Virus record (IMG/VR): IMGVR_UViG_3300020583_000224
Location: 1 to 64,000 of that record
Direction: 5' to 3' (one strand)
DNA from: a virus
Length of the DNA stretch: 64,000 nt
Shown here: piece after piece, positions 2,748-25,055 of the stretch
How the letters are laid out: every line of letters starts with the position of its first letter
Numbering within the stretch: the first letter of the stretch is position 1
Translations under genes and position numbers: made by a program
The notes under the pieces: generated by a model
Seen by the model: the letters and a program-made list of their open reading frames with translations, nothing else
Told to the model about the DNA's origin: nothing
The model's database searches: none

Positions 2748-3904
2748 ACGGCCCAGACGCCGAGGAAGAAGAGCACGGCGACGACCACGGCGAGCGGCGC
2801 GCACACCCACACGTACAACTGCCCCAACCACGGGCGACGCTCAGCTGCTCGCGCAACCAGGACGTACAGCGGCCACATGAGCAGCAGGGTTCGGGGCACG
2901 GCCTGATAGTAGGTCGTCGTCGCTAGCGACACGACCGCGAGCGCGCAGTACAACGCCTCGGGCCACGCCCGGCGCCACGTCAGAACAATAGTGAGCGCGA
3001 GCGCGACGGCCATGCAGGCGATCTCGAGTTGGAACATGGCGGCCCGCTCGGGCGTGAGCCCGTGTCCGAACGCCCGGTCCCACGTGTTGCGCAGCGACAT
3101 CCACGGGCCGACGAATCGCAGCCCCCAACCGTTGCGGTTCGCGGTCAGCCATGCGGTCCACGAGCCGGACCCGGCCCACAGGTAAATCTCGAAGCCGGCC
3201 GGGCCGAGCGCGGCCAGGGACGTGACGGCGGTCGCGCGCAGCCGCTGCCCGCGCGGGCTCATCACTGCGGCAAGCATGAGCGCCGCGATCAGGAACACCC
3301 CGTTCACGCGCACGAGTCCCGCGCAGGCGGCGAGCAGCGACGCCAGCGGCCAGTCCCGTCGCTTCGCCGCCATCCAGGCGGGCAGTGCGAACGCGAGGAA
3401 CAGCGCCTCGGAATAGCCGACGATCAGGTACATGGCTGCGGGCGCGGTCAGCAGGCACAGGGCCGCGCGCTCGCCGCCGAGCCGCCCGATGCACACGAGC
3501 GCGACGCCGCCAGCGACGAGCGAGATGAGCAGACCGGCGACGACCCAGTTACGGACGATCAGGTGTACGGCGGCGAGCACGAGCGGAAAGCCCGGCAGGA
3601 ACGCGGCGCCGTCGGACCCGGGGCCGCGGCCGCTGAAGTATCCGTGCGCGGCGATGGCCTGATACCACGTGTAATCCCACTGCCCGTAGATGCCGAGCAG
3701 CGGCCGGTAGAGTCCGCGCGACCCGCCGATCCAAGCACTCATCCAGGCGATGACGGCGAGCCCGGCGTGTGCCCCGGCCCACAGTCCGAGGATGCGCCGG
3801 TCGGTCGGGGTGAGCCGTGCGACTGCCGTGCGGGCGCTACGGTACAGGCGCCGGGCAGCGTGCGGGCGCACGAGTGCCGTCTCGGCGGTCTCGCGTTGCA
3901 GCAT
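2744..3904 (-). CDS. PIG-V-like polytopic mannosyltransferase
   Basis: A 386-residue integral membrane protein with about nine hydrophobic segments. It resembles bacterial mannosyltransferases of the PIG-V/GT-C type: Q75-W-D-Y-T-W-Y in the first periplasmic loop (D77 is a candidate catalytic acid), AFLPGFPL (101-108), GYSEALFLAF (163-172) and GLVRVNGVFL. Such enzymes transfer mannose from polyprenyl-phosphate-mannose to lipids or secreted proteins at the outer face of the membrane. The start was set at the ATG at 3904 because AGGGGG lies at good spacing; an upstream in-frame ATG at 4045 would run into the divergent tail gene. It is the only reverse-strand gene inside the tail operon, has its own possible promoter, and looks like an independently expressed cargo (moron) gene. 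Likely roles are modifying the host receptor or virion glycans. Confidence 0.7.
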   Translation of the reverse strand: MLQRETAETALVRPHAARRLYRSARTAVARLTPTDRRILGLWAGAHAGLAVIAWMSAWIGGSRGLYRPLLGIYGQWDYTWYQAIAAHGYFSGRGPGSDGAAFLPGFPLVLAAVHLIVRNWVVAGLLISLVAGGVALVCIGRLGGERAALCLLTAPAAMYLIVGYSEALFLAFALPAWMAAKRRDWPLASLLAACAGLVRVNGVFLIAALMLAAVMSPRGQRLRATAVTSLAALGPAGFEIYLWAGSGSWTAWLTANRNGWGLRFVGPWMSLRNTWDRAFGHGLTPERAAMFQLEIACMAVALALTIVLTWRRAWPEALYCALAVVSLATTTYYQAVPRTLLLMWPLYVLVARAAERRPWLGQLYVWVCAPLAVVVAVLFFLGVWAV

Positions 3905-21704: not shown

Positions 21705-22168
21705 CGACACCTGCCGACCTGACGGACGGGCAGCTGCTCGCCGAGATCCGTACCGCTGAGACGGCGGCACTCGACCCGGAGACCGTGCTGACGGCGCTCC
21801 GGAGTGCCACCGCAGCGCACCTCGAGCGGCGCCCGAACCCGTTCGCCGCGCTCGCCGAGCCGGACGACCTGCTGCTCGCCCAGCCGCCGTTCCAGGTGGA
21901 CTCGTGCGAAGACCTGTCCGCGCTGGTGGACTCACAGGCACCCCGGCCGGCCGATGCTCCGCACGCGCGGCCGGCCGGGGCGAACGCTCCCGCGACGCTT
22001 TCCACGACGGAGGCCGCGTCGATCCTCGGCGTGTCCCGCGCCACCCTGGTCCGCTACTGCGAGGACGGGCGGCTGCCGTATGCGAAGCCCGGTAAGCACC
22101 GGCGGCTGCGGCACGCAGATGTCCTCGCGTTCAAGGACGCCACCACACACGGGCGGGTGGCGTCATGA
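21701..22168 (+). CDS. excisionase-family HTH protein
   Basis: A 155-residue protein. The C-terminal 55 residues are a MerR/excisionase winged HTH (TTEAASILGVSRATLVRYCE, DGRLPYAKPG, HRRLRHADVLAF). The N-terminal 95 residues are acidic and probably form a protein-interaction domain. It is the second excisionase-like gene of the window (compare 14396). It could be a transcription regulator of this block or the true excisionase. Confidence 0.65.
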   Translation: MTTPADLTDGQLLAEIRTAETAALDPETVLTALRSATAAHLERRPNPFAALAEPDDLLLAQPPFQVDSCEDLSALVDSQAPRPADAPHARPAGANAPATLSTTEAASILGVSRATLVRYCEDGRLPYAKPGKHRRLRHADVLAFKDATTHGRVAS

Positions 22169-22539
22169 GCCCTGTCCGCGAGGCCACCTCGAACCGGCTC
22201 ATCCTGCTGCGCTCGATGAGCGAAGCCCAGTGGATGAGCAAGGTCCGCGAGATCGCCAAGCGCTACGGCTGGACCAGCTACCACACCCGGAACTCGAAGG
22301 GCTCCGACCACGGCTGGCCCGACCTCGTCATCGCGCACGCCGGGCAGCGCCGCACCGTGTTCGCCGAGCTGAAGAAGGAGGCCGGCAAGGTCACGCCCGC
22401 GCAGCGCACATGGCTCGAGCATCTCGCCTCATGCGGGTTCGAAGTCGCTGTCTGGCGACCGCGCGATGAGGACGAAGTGCTCGCTGTCCTTGGTCCGCAG
22501 AAGCTGCGCGCCACGTGGGCCGAAGGAGGTGCCTCATGA
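22165..22539 (+). CDS. VRR-NUC domain nuclease
   Basis: A 124-residue stand-alone VRR-NUC protein: SEAQWMSKVREIAKRYGW, then GWPDLVIAH (catalytic D), TVFAELKKEAGKVTPAQ (E-x-K) and WLEHLASCGFEVAVWRP. These PD-(D/E)XK enzymes resolve branched DNA or nick and degrade DNA in phages. It is coupled on both sides by ATGA. Confidence 0.8.
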   Translation: MSPVREATSNRLILLRSMSEAQWMSKVREIAKRYGWTSYHTRNSKGSDHGWPDLVIAHAGQRRTVFAELKKEAGKVTPAQRTWLEHLASCGFEVAVWRPRDEDEVLAVLGPQKLRATWAEGGAS

Positions 22540-24207
22540 CGCTGCGCGTTGCTTCACTCTGCTCCGGCGTCGGCGGCCTAGATCTCGCTGTCGAGTCCGT
22601 GCTCGACGCCGAGCTCGCCTGGTACGCCCAGTACGAGCCGCCGGATAAGAACGGCAAGGAAGACAAGAACCAGTACGCCGCACAGATCATGGCGGCGCGC
22701 TTCCCCGGCGTCCCGAACCTCGGCGACATTACCGCCATTGACTACACGCAGGTCGAGCCCGTGGACATCCTGACCGCCGGCTTCCCGTGCACCGACCTCT
22801 CCTTGGCAGGCAAGCGCGCAGGCCTCATGCCCGGCACCCGATCCGGGATCTGGTCGCACGTCGCCCGCGCTGTCGAAGTATTGCGCCCCTCGCTCGTCTT
22901 CATCGAAAACGTCAGGAGTTTGACCAGTGCCAAGGCCCATAGCGACTTGGAGCACTGCCCGTGGTGCATGGGAGAAGCCGCAGAGGGGGGGGGGATCCGC
23001 TCTTCCGCCTCTGCGAGCACTCGGAGCTGTTCTCGGAGATCTGGCCGACCTCGGGTTCGATGCGGAGTGGCAGGTGCTTCCCGCCTCCGCCATCGGAGCA
23101 CCCCATAAGCGCGAGCGGTGCTTCGTCCTCGCGTGGCCCGCAGACCGTTCACCCCGAGGTTCCCGGTGGGCGTCTTCAGCAGACGCCCACCGGGAACCTC
23201 GGGGTGAACGGTGGCTCGCAGCACCCGGACAAGCGGAAGTCGGGCGGCCATGGGCCGACGCTCGCGGACGAGGTGGAGCATCTGCTGCCCACGCCGAAGG
23301 CGAGCGACCCGGAGCGTGGCGACTGCGCGTCGGAGCGGGCGCGCAGGTCGCCGGTTCTCGAGACGGTGGTCAATCTGCTGCCGACTCCGACATCCTCGTT
23401 CCCGGGTACGACCGCGAACTTCCGGGAGGACGGGACGCCGTACAGCAGCGGGTATGGCCCGACGCTGCTGGACGCAGTTCGACTGTTGCCGACCCCGCGC
23501 ACTTCGGACACGAACGGGATCGGTTCGCACGGAGCGGGCGGACCGGACCTGAGGACGGTCGTCTCGGAGACGTCCCGTCCGTCGCCCGGGGCGTTGGGAG
23601 CAATGCCCCGGGCGACGGACGGGACAAAGGGTGGACCGAATCAGCGCGGGAGTTCCGGCGATCTGATGTTGCCGAGCGCCGTGGCGCACCTGCCGACACC
23701 CAGGGCGCGGGACTGGAAGCGCGGCGGGAAGGACGGCTTGGAGGAAGCCCTTCTCCCGACTGTGACGCAGTACGGCAGCAATCAGTCTCCGACGCCCGGC
23801 GCGGCGGTGCGGCCGAGCCTGAGTTCCCTAGCCTCGAGCGGTTCGCTACTTCCGACGCCGACAGCGGCCGACGGGGATCGGGCGAGTCTGACGATGCTGC
23901 GGGGCAACCCGACATTGCGTGGGGCGATTACGAACCCGCCATCCGACGCTGGGAAGCCGTCACCGGCCAGCCTGCCCCCCGGCCAACTGACGATCGAGGA
24001 CGCCTGAACCCGGTCTTCGTCGAGTGGATGGTCGGGCTTGCCGAGGGCTGGGTCACTGATGTCCCCGACATCCCGCGCAATGCGCAGCTCAAGGGCCTGG
24101 GCAACATCGTCGTGCCGCAGCAGGCCGCCGAGGCGCTGCGGATCCTGCTCGGCCGCGCCGGTTTCGTCCTCGATGACGCGTCTGCGCTGGAGGTGACGGC
24201 CGCATGA
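22536..24207 (+). CDS. C5-cytosine DNA methyltransferase, frameshifted at a G10 tract
   Basis: The N-terminal part (from ATG 22536, GGAGG upstream) has motif I SLCSGVGGLDL, motif IV GFPCTDLSLAG with the catalytic Cys, and motif VI IENVRSL. The C-terminal part lies in the next frame (about 22996-24207), with LRALGAVLGDLADLGF, APHKRERCFVLAWPAD (motif VIII) and RLNPVFVEWMVG, GLGNIVVPQQAAEAL (motifs IX-X). With ten G at 22985-22994 the first frame stops at 23108; nine G would give one continuous protein of about 556 residues. Its product would protect phage DNA from restriction or mark it. The break may be phase variation, +1 slippage, a real mutation or a homopolymer sequencing error. Confidence 0.75.
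22961..24007 (+). CDS. overlapping LPTP-repeat protein in an alternative frame
   Basis: An open frame of 348 codons overlapping the methyltransferase C-terminal half. It contains six LPTP-like repeats (LLPTPKASD, LLPTPTSS, LLPTPRTSD, LPTPRARDW, LLPTVTQY, LLPTPTAAD) and FSEIWPTSGSMRSGRCF plus RATDGTKGGPNQRGSSGDL. I recognise these as parts of a protein type found in actinophages, often within or beside C5 methyltransferase genes. Both overlapping frames therefore look like known families. GTG 22961 or 22964 has TTGGAG upstream, so independent initiation is possible. Alternatively, slippage at the G10 tract (eleven or eight G) would fuse it to the methyltransferase N-terminus. Function unknown; it may act in target recognition. 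Confidence 0.6.
   Translation: MVHGRSRRGGGDPLFRLCEHSELFSEIWPTSGSMRSGRCFPPPPSEHPISASGASSSRGPQTVHPEVPGGRLQQTPTGNLGVNGGSQHPDKRKSGGHGPTLADEVEHLLPTPKASDPERGDCASERARRSPVLETVVNLLPTPTSSFPGTTANFREDGTPYSSGYGPTLLDAVRLLPTPRTSDTNGIGSHGAGGPDLRTVVSETSRPSPGALGAMPRATDGTKGGPNQRGSSGDLMLPSAVAHLPTPRARDWKRGGKDGLEEALLPTVTQYGSNQSPTPGAAVRPSLSSLASSGSLLPTPTAADGDRASLTMLRGNPTLRGAITNPPSDAGKPSPASLPPGQLTIEDA
22985..22994 (+). repeat. G10 homopolymer inside the methyltransferase gene
   Basis: Ten consecutive G residues within the sequence AGAG(10)ATCC. They sit exactly where the methyltransferase reading frame shifts, and all three frames across them are readable into different C-termini (short stop at 23108, methyltransferase end, LPTP protein). 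Confidence 0.9.
23144..23212. repeat. 32-bp perfect inverted repeat inside the methyltransferase gene
   Basis: Arms 23144-23175 and 23181-23212 are perfectly complementary with a 5-nt loop. In the methyltransferase frame the first arm and loop (about 39 nt, 13 codons between AWPAD and AHREPRGERW) look like an in-frame insertion of an inverted copy of the following codons. Being a multiple of three, it leaves both overlapping frames intact. It would form a very stable hairpin in DNA or RNA. Confidence 0.9.
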
Positions 24208-25055
24208 CCGCCGCCCTCACGCGCCCTACAGTCGGCACGCTGCCCGCCCACGGCACGACCGCCCGTCGTCATCGCGGCTGTGGCTGCCTGCCGTGCCGGC
24301 GCGCTCAACGCCGCTACGACAAGCGGCGGCGCATCTACCGCACCCGCGGGATCGCCGGCCGCGTCCCGATGTCCCCGGTAACTGAACACGTGGCCGTGCT
24401 GCGCGCGACGGGTGCGACATTGCAGGCGATCGCGGACGCGGCGGACTGCTCGCAGGGCACGATCCTCAACATCGAACGCAGCCAGCATCCGACGCTGTTC
24501 GCTTCGATCGCGCGACGCGTTCTGGCCGTGCACCCGGGAATGCTCGCGCCGGCGATGGTCGGCGCGGTCGGCGTGGCCCGACAGGTGCAGGCCCTGTATG
24601 TGGCCGGCTACCCGCTGGCGGTGCTCAGCGCCGAGTTCGGGTTCACGCGCACCTATGTCAGCGAACTCGCCAACGGGCGCCGCGAGCGGGTCACGTATGC
24701 GACGTACCGCAGGATCGCGGACGCGTACGCGCGCCTGTCCGGCGCGCCGGGGCCGAGTGAGTACACCCGGGCGTGGGCTGCGCGCCGCGGATGGCTTCCG
24801 CCTGCCGCATGGGAGGGACTGGACATTGATGATCCGGCCGCTGATCCGACGGTGGAGTCGGCGGTTTCGCGGTATGCCGTCGTGGCCGAGGAGGCGGCGT
24901 TCTTCGCGTCGCAGGGCTTAACGCAGGAGGGGATCGCGGCCCACTTGGGGCTGTCGGTGAACACGCTGCAGATCTATCTGGTGCGGGCGAGGCGCGCGGC
25001 TGCGGGGGACCGAGATCCGGGCGCGGACGACGCACTCGCCGACCTTGCCGCCTGA
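24204..25055 (+). CDS. multi-HTH DNA-binding protein
   Basis: A 283-residue basic protein with a Cys/Arg-rich start (RRHRGCGCLPCRRAQRRYDK), an HTH at about 70-95 (ATLQAIADAADCSQGTILNI), another at about 140-160 (LSAEFGFTRTYVSELANG) and a third near 245 (LTQEGIAAHLGLSVNTLQIY). This three-HTH arrangement is known from actinobacterial phages. It probably acts as a transcription regulator or nucleoid-like protein. It overlaps the methyltransferase stop by ATGA. Confidence 0.6.
   Translation: MTAALTRPTVGTLPAHGTTARRHRGCGCLPCRRAQRRYDKRRRIYRTRGIAGRVPMSPVTEHVAVLRATGATLQAIADAADCSQGTILNIERSQHPTLFASIARRVLAVHPGMLAPAMVGAVGVARQVQALYVAGYPLAVLSAEFGFTRTYVSELANGRRERVTYATYRRIADAYARLSGAPGPSEYTRAWAARRGWLPPAAWEGLDIDDPAADPTVESAVSRYAVVAEEAAFFASQGLTQEGIAAHLGLSVNTLQIYLVRARRAAAGDRDPGADDALADLAA

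Follow-up and report, generated by a model that had tools for sequence, protein, structure and literature searches.

A methyltransferase gene of viral origin that shares its bases with a conserved LPTP-module protein, a putative recognition subunit of a two-protein C5-cytosine methyltransferase

Can part of a methyltransferase gene specify a second conserved protein in another reading frame, and, if so, what might that protein do? The question is raised by positions 22536-24207 of a 64,000-nucleotide stretch (hereafter the window; positions 1 to 64,000 of the 122,712-base IMG/VR virus record IMGVR_UViG_3300020583_000224), where a first-pass annotation had proposed that a methyltransferase C-terminus and an LPTP-repeat protein overlap, the latter with no known function. 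Judging by the depletion of stop codons in both frames over 72 relatives, the two genes genuinely overlap and the second product is conserved, as that annotation had suspected; the locus would then be an unusually long example, with many members, of a pair of proteins that evolve on shared bases. Our preferred reading, to which we assign a probability of roughly 0.6, is that the pair may represent a two-protein C5-cytosine methyltransferase, with the second subunit nested in the gene for the first and acting as its target-recognition (beta) chain. We designate as M the frame of motifs VIII-X, and as P the frame M+1; both are open across 22961-24007. The main components, including each open reading frame (ORF), are as follows:

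22536..23108, plus strand: N-terminal half of a C5-methyltransferase with motifs I, IV (PC) and VI (ENV); PF00145 3.2e-22, phrog_363 1.2e-36
22927..24207, plus strand: M-frame ORF with motif VIII, an Asp/Ala/Arg-rich linker and motifs IX-X; PF00145 4.5e-5, phrog_1008 5e-32, phrog_363 5e-19
23032..23133, plus strand: methyltransferase motif VIII region, M frame; profile match 69 bits
23920..24150, plus strand: motifs IX (RLNPVFVEWMVG) and X (GLGNIVVPQQAAEAL), M frame; profile match 128 bits
22961..24007, plus strand: P-frame ORF, LPTP-module protein; phrog_1008 9e-19
23000..23134, plus strand: P1, the conserved N-terminal part of P (..EHSELFSEIWPTSGSMRSGRCF..), on the same bases as motif VIII; profile match 75 bits
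23177..23932, plus strand: array of eight LPTP-type modules in P

The C5-methyltransferase motifs I, IV (Pro-Cys), VI (ENV), VIII, IX and X follow one another in order over 22536-24207 and are split between two frames because of a run of ten G, described below. Three frames of one strand are thereby in use over this interval in this contig: the ORF of the N-terminal half occupies the third frame of the trio and ends past the G run, the M-frame ORF covers motifs VIII-X as the first-pass annotation had it, and P, 348 aa long, terminates at a TGA located inside CTG-A, the Leu-Asn codons of motif IX in M. P carries the conserved blocks WPTSGSMRSGRCF and RATDGTKGGPNQRGSS noted earlier, and P1 lies in the +1 frame of motif VIII in relatives as well. 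The six LPTP-like repeats reported previously are in fact eight modules, five of them with an exact LPTP, which begin at 23177, 23285, 23378, 23486, ~23603, 23690, 23753 and 23849. Their starts do coincide with the AADSD/ADPA-like segments of the methyltransferase, since CTN-CCN-ACN-CCN is read as NCC-NAC-NCC one base earlier. P matches phrog_1008 from position 92 on, and the end of that PHROG is matched by the C-terminus of M, a first sign that LPTP and IX-X share a frame in other phages.

Relatives were collected with P as a query (80 viral contigs, plus phages) and also with the N-terminal half plus motif VIII only, which avoids selection for P (80 viral and 80 bacterial contigs), and profile searches of every frame then placed motif VIII, P1 and IX-X. 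After removal of duplicates, 220 loci remained. In class A, to which the window belongs (n=72), P is nested in the methyltransferase gene, motif IX is in M, and both frames are open; in class B (n=33), LPTP modules are fused into the methyltransferase chain between motifs VIII and IX; in class C (n=55), LPTP modules and IX-X are in P and M is broken; the rest comprise 51 loci with short arrays and 9 others. In a fourth layout, class D, P carries motif IX and the methyltransferase keeps motif X, again with a nested second ORF. It was first met in a gut-phage contig, L254, read in all frames, in which an alpha chain of 317 aa has motif X and a nested P of 247 aa has motif IX (LNPEWVEWLMG); a scan for this arrangement yielded 64 distinct loci, 61 of which have IX on the small chain and X on the large one, at a GC content of 0.42-0.72. 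In class D (L254:2217-3170), the M frame over motif IX reads EPGVGRVxDGLPxRVxRI, an overprinted stretch of the methyltransferase chain where motif IX would be expected.

Across the 72 diverse class A loci (11,153 codons) there were no stops in M and none in P, as opposed to 325 in the third frame, a result that holds partly by construction, since stops enter the definition of the classes, and one in which the loci are related, so that stop counts are not independent trials. When synonymous codons were shuffled within each locus, preserving P alone predicted 136 stops in M, and preserving M alone predicted 57 in P. In addition, T preceding AA, AG or GA was found at 0/1,610 third positions of P in class A, compared with ~10% in class B and high-GC class C. 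For the window itself, synonymous shuffling of P gave a mean of 5.4 M stops, and zero was never reached in 200 trials, whereas shuffling of M left P open in 6.5% of trials; the window by itself therefore proves little for P. Taken across the 72 relatives, the two shuffles give a decisive result for either frame. Class C (8,268 codons, GC down to 43%) has 0 P stops and 555 M stops, and class D (8,540 codons) has 0 M stops, 2 P stops and 585 third-frame stops. We also looked for the case that would speak most directly against the earlier proposal, namely P broken by stops with the methyltransferase kept: among loci with LPTP in P and IX in M, a stop in P occurs in L012 and L031 alone, one in each, versus 72 intact loci. 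These two may have lost P while keeping the methyltransferase, or may reflect a sequencing error.

The two frames are not constrained equally. In class A pairs of same-family modules, substitutions per site at P positions 1, 2 and 3 were 0.18, 0.12 and 0.45, and identity was 0.82 for P and 0.47 for M. At matched P identity (0.6-0.8), M identity was 0.40 in class A and 0.35 in class C, where M is not translated; this closeness to the class C level suggests that, across the array, M is chiefly a linker kept open, under slightly more constraint and favouring G in the first position of its codons. Over motif VIII the pattern is reversed, and the M third position evolves fastest. Third positions of P are free across a GC range of 0.43-0.75, and a DNA- or RNA-level repeat in place of a protein was rejected, since the third positions of the LPTP codons are free. 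As far as substitution patterns can tell, constraint at the amino acid level over the array is strong on P and weak on M, which is mainly kept open. The earlier suggestion that both products are under selection on the same bases thus stands insofar as both frames are kept open and P is constrained as a protein, and fails insofar as it implied equal selection.

P also appears to have its own translation start, as summarized below together with the G run that follows it:

22914..22918, plus strand: AGGAG, Shine-Dalgarno-like sequence 8 nt before the P start
22927..22929, plus strand: conserved GTG start of the P gene; M reads Ser AGT - Ala GCC
22985..22994, plus strand: run of ten G, at which motifs I-VI go out of register with motif VIII, and the P start with the P body

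The Arg following ENV is encoded by AGA or AGG in 57/140 high-GC relatives (background 9%), and the Ser four codons past that Arg by AGT in 63/153 relatives (background 7.5%); these rare AGR and AGT codons jointly supply P with a Shine-Dalgarno-like site and an in-frame GTG. Where that GTG is missing, in many loci an AAT codon in ENV yields ATG, and in class D, L254 has AAAGGAG upstream of an ATG; a clear P start is absent in some loci, notably those of the short-array class. GTG 22961 is unlikely to be where P natively starts; the conserved start is GTG 22927. The overlap that marks nested two-protein enzymes of the M.EcoHK31I type, with a second ORF in the other frame having its own start, is present in the window, although this start is out of register with the P body because of the G run. 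The window is alone in reading motifs I-VI and motif VIII from different frames, other relatives with a detectable N-terminal half using one frame; if 22985-22994 were one G shorter, the methyltransferase and P would both be in register. At the equivalent site L011 has eight G, and no run of six or more G was present in the other relatives checked. The poly-G run was accordingly rejected as a family feature, L011 alone having another run of at least six G there; it may represent an assembly error or an on/off switch operating by slippage (length variation). The first-pass annotation had overlooked this run, the placement of motifs I-VI in a third frame, and two palindromes within the array.

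To which system could such a pair belong? On a tree of the N-terminal half plus motif VIII (a quick alpha tree with SH-aLRT support only), 27 class changes were needed, while the minimum possible is 4, indicating that the same parts have been repeatedly rewired; strongly supported branches force at least 7 changes for class A, 5 for class C and 4 for class B, and the sister of the window, L040, belongs to class C. All 80 loci found with P alone code for methyltransferase motif VIII in the -1 frame, i.e. P was not found detached from the methyltransferase. Matches were present in phages of Mycobacterium, Gordonia, Arthrobacter, Streptomyces, Paenibacillus, Escherichia, Salmonella, Vibrio and others, and a class C beta protein of this family is matched by 574 phage records, while a plasmid search with class D beta gave one weak match. 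A clade of contigs from Microbacterium, Leucobacter, Actinomyces and other actinobacterial genomes (L182-L231) has an array of approximately one module, with P still open and only indistinct start signals for it.

The modules themselves, 607 among the relatives, have a median length of 36 residues and fall into ~13 main families, most of which are common to classes A, B and C. Module order differs in 137/154 arrays, and same-family pairs within one locus are depleted (34 observed vs 79 +- 7 expected), none exceeding 50% identity. Recent horizontal transfer of modules as DNA was mostly rejected, as only 4/32 module pairs more than 90% identical had a divergent motif VIII. No LPTP module matched any named Pfam or NCBIfam domain.

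In M.EcoHK31I of E. coli, which recognizes YGGCCR, the smaller gene is nested in the larger. PMC3404938 describes it as a two-polypeptide C5-methyltransferase whose larger chain has motifs I-VIII and X and whose smaller chain has motif IX only, and a 1995 title in its reference list states that two proteins are required; the enzyme is termed naturally split in PMC3439449. Class D shows the identical division of motifs and a nested second ORF. In the window, by comparison, IX and X are both on alpha and absent from P, which consists largely of the eight-module LPTP array. M.AquI, a cyanobacterial enzyme (CYCGRG), has a split layout described in PMC3404938, with which class C agrees: alpha ends after motif VIII and beta has IX-X, as is seen in 55 class C relatives, with phages Samy, DrYang and Eagle named alongside. 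Class C genes differ in that they overlap over motif VIII and carry the LPTP array, and the window, which is not class C, differs in that its M runs on to IX-X. Multispecific C5-methyltransferases of Bacillus phages SPR, phi3T and rho11 carry, between motifs VIII and IX, a tandem series of several exchangeable recognition modules, each ~40 residues long. Class B resembles these enzymes in module placement; the window fits in module position and shuffling, but its modules are on a separate chain, and some relatives carry a module after motif X. In the databases, phrog_1008, annotated as 'DNA methyltransferase', is matched by the P proteins of the window and of classes C and D; it mixes LPTP and IX-X from frame-sharing layouts, and the overlap is not recorded in it. 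In the literature as far as it was covered, no paper joined LPTP with methyltransferase and phage, a coverage too partial to prove that none exists.

Because class D corresponds to the description of M.EcoHK31I, which needs both polypeptides (a requirement published for that enzyme alone), we read P as a putative target-recognition subunit. Sequence comparison makes this the best reading of its role, given its place between motifs VIII and IX, the exchange of IX and X between chains, the single chain of class B, and the fact that P was not found away from the methyltransferase; to say that P has no known function would be too weak, when it always overlaps this methyltransferase, elsewhere carries IX or IX-X, and has a precedent in M.EcoHK31I. 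Open frames, separate start signals, amino acid conservation of P, module shuffling and four interchangeable layouts all support the two-protein enzyme. Its alpha chain would comprise motifs I-VIII and IX-X joined by a low-complexity linker from the M frame, while beta would begin within the motif VI region, at a ribosome site of its own, and be read from the same bases one position later, as a short conserved P1 followed by an array of interchangeable modules of ~36 residues. Beta would dock on alpha between VIII and IX, where C5 enzymes carry the target-recognition domain, and it is this position that suggests DNA recognition by P. Different modules would probably confer different target preferences, so that swapping them could alter which host restriction sites the phage protects; in the window contig, the G run puts both chains out of register. 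We infer that P is translated, that the chains form a complex in which P has a recognition role, and that each module has one specificity. Only tentatively, and with considerable doubt, do we extend this to LPTP cassettes each with its own target, combined by phages and acting in trans from the nested gene, with the G run switching both subunits together. If beta is the recognition subunit, it would explain how phages change methylation specificity by swapping short modules, and the nested, fused and split layouts would offer a natural series in which the same enzyme parts are wired differently.

Several observations weigh against such a role. Module number per locus varies from ~1 to 9, so that none is obviously essential. 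Seven class C loci (L109, L115, L163, L126, L102, L113 and L117) have an extra module (LPTPTVSDTFTDNL..SMHSVTLPQAV) after motif X, with a similar counterpart before IX in L135, L142 and L100; modules past motif X lie outside the usual recognition position and speak against a simple recognition-domain interpretation. AlphaFold gave no confident fold for the modules in either the class B single chain or class C beta, and Foldseek found no structural neighbour of beta, with nothing below E 3.3. The catalytic core and IX-X were predicted confidently, unlike the modules: the class B relative L094 has a core pLDDT of ~90, with M.HhaI as the best PDB match (E 1.4e-13).

Could P be translated separately and act apart from methylation, its modules being effector or adaptor segments, directed for example against host defences, with the methyltransferase gene as a carrier? 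Modules predicted to be disordered or without a confident fold, and modules past motif X, would suit such a role, and non-redundant module sets would fit different binding partners as well; we nevertheless consider it unlikely, though worth keeping in view, as P was not found away from the methyltransferase gene, takes over IX or IX-X in many phages, and has its modules between VIII and IX in class B. Shuffled order, gain and loss, and palindromes at module starts suggestive of template switching might instead point to short selfish or neutral DNA cassettes piling up between VIII and IX with both frames left open, for which another out-of-frame insert in a phage methylase provides a published parallel (PMC11855218). 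The strong conservation of P amino acids with free third positions over a wide GC range, the separate conserved start and ribosome site, and the scarcity of same-family repeats per locus make this account improbable. The published insert, the ShiLan element, is an out-of-frame HNH endonuclease in an actinophage methylase (PMC11855218). It resembles P in being a second protein out of frame within a phage methylase gene, with a GTG start, and differs in being a homing insert in the third frame, while the LPTP overlap is a family trait and P shows no nuclease domain; a homing element was rejected on this basis.

A single chain produced by programmed frameshifting from VIII (M) to LPTP (P) and back to IX-X (M) would make class A equal to class B at the protein level and restore the order VIII-LPTP-IX-X, and the window does have a stable hairpin just after motif VIII. 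It is, however, very unlikely, as it needs two shifts of opposite sense, such palindromes were seen in only six of ~86 loci scanned, no common slippery site was noticed (no systematic search having been made), and M is open throughout the array, which would be needless under a double shift. There remains the view that no second gene exists and that P stays open simply because a conserved methyltransferase favours GC-rich codons. It could appeal to the 70% GC of the window and to the openness of P in 6.5% of M shuffles there, and we give it hardly any credence: class C keeps P free of stops at GC down to 43% while M has 6.7 stops per 100 codons, class D extends to 42-50% GC, and P is more conserved than M. 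A GC artefact was rejected on the evidence of these low-GC classes.

The array of the window further contains two palindromes:

23144..23212 (69 bp), no strand assigned: palindrome at the start of module 1; 32-nt perfect arms, 5-nt loop; -72.9 kcal/mol as RNA
23572..23625 (54 bp), no strand assigned: palindrome at the RATDGTKGG module; 25-nt arms (96%), 4-nt loop; -59.0 kcal/mol as RNA

In relatives, similar structures are found at L011:3137-3203 and 3363-3422, L054:3195-3263 and L085:2999-3054; L011 has both at the places seen in the window, while L054 and L085 have one each, where the module is of the same type. The left arm repeats the module start in inverted form, and in the first palindrome four left-arm differences between the window and L011, compared by eye, are each matched in the right arm. 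A general frameshift signal was rejected, since few of the loci scanned have such palindromes and their density is lower within the region than outside; our guess is that they arose from fold-back copying during module exchange.

The class A phage records Darolandstone and MidnightRain annotate the methyltransferase only, so that a conserved protein has been missed there. In the window, the locus is adjoined upstream by a VRR-NUC nuclease (PF08774 1.5e-10; 22165-22539) and downstream by an HTH protein of phrog_1590 (7e-49; 24204-25055), to which no function is assigned.
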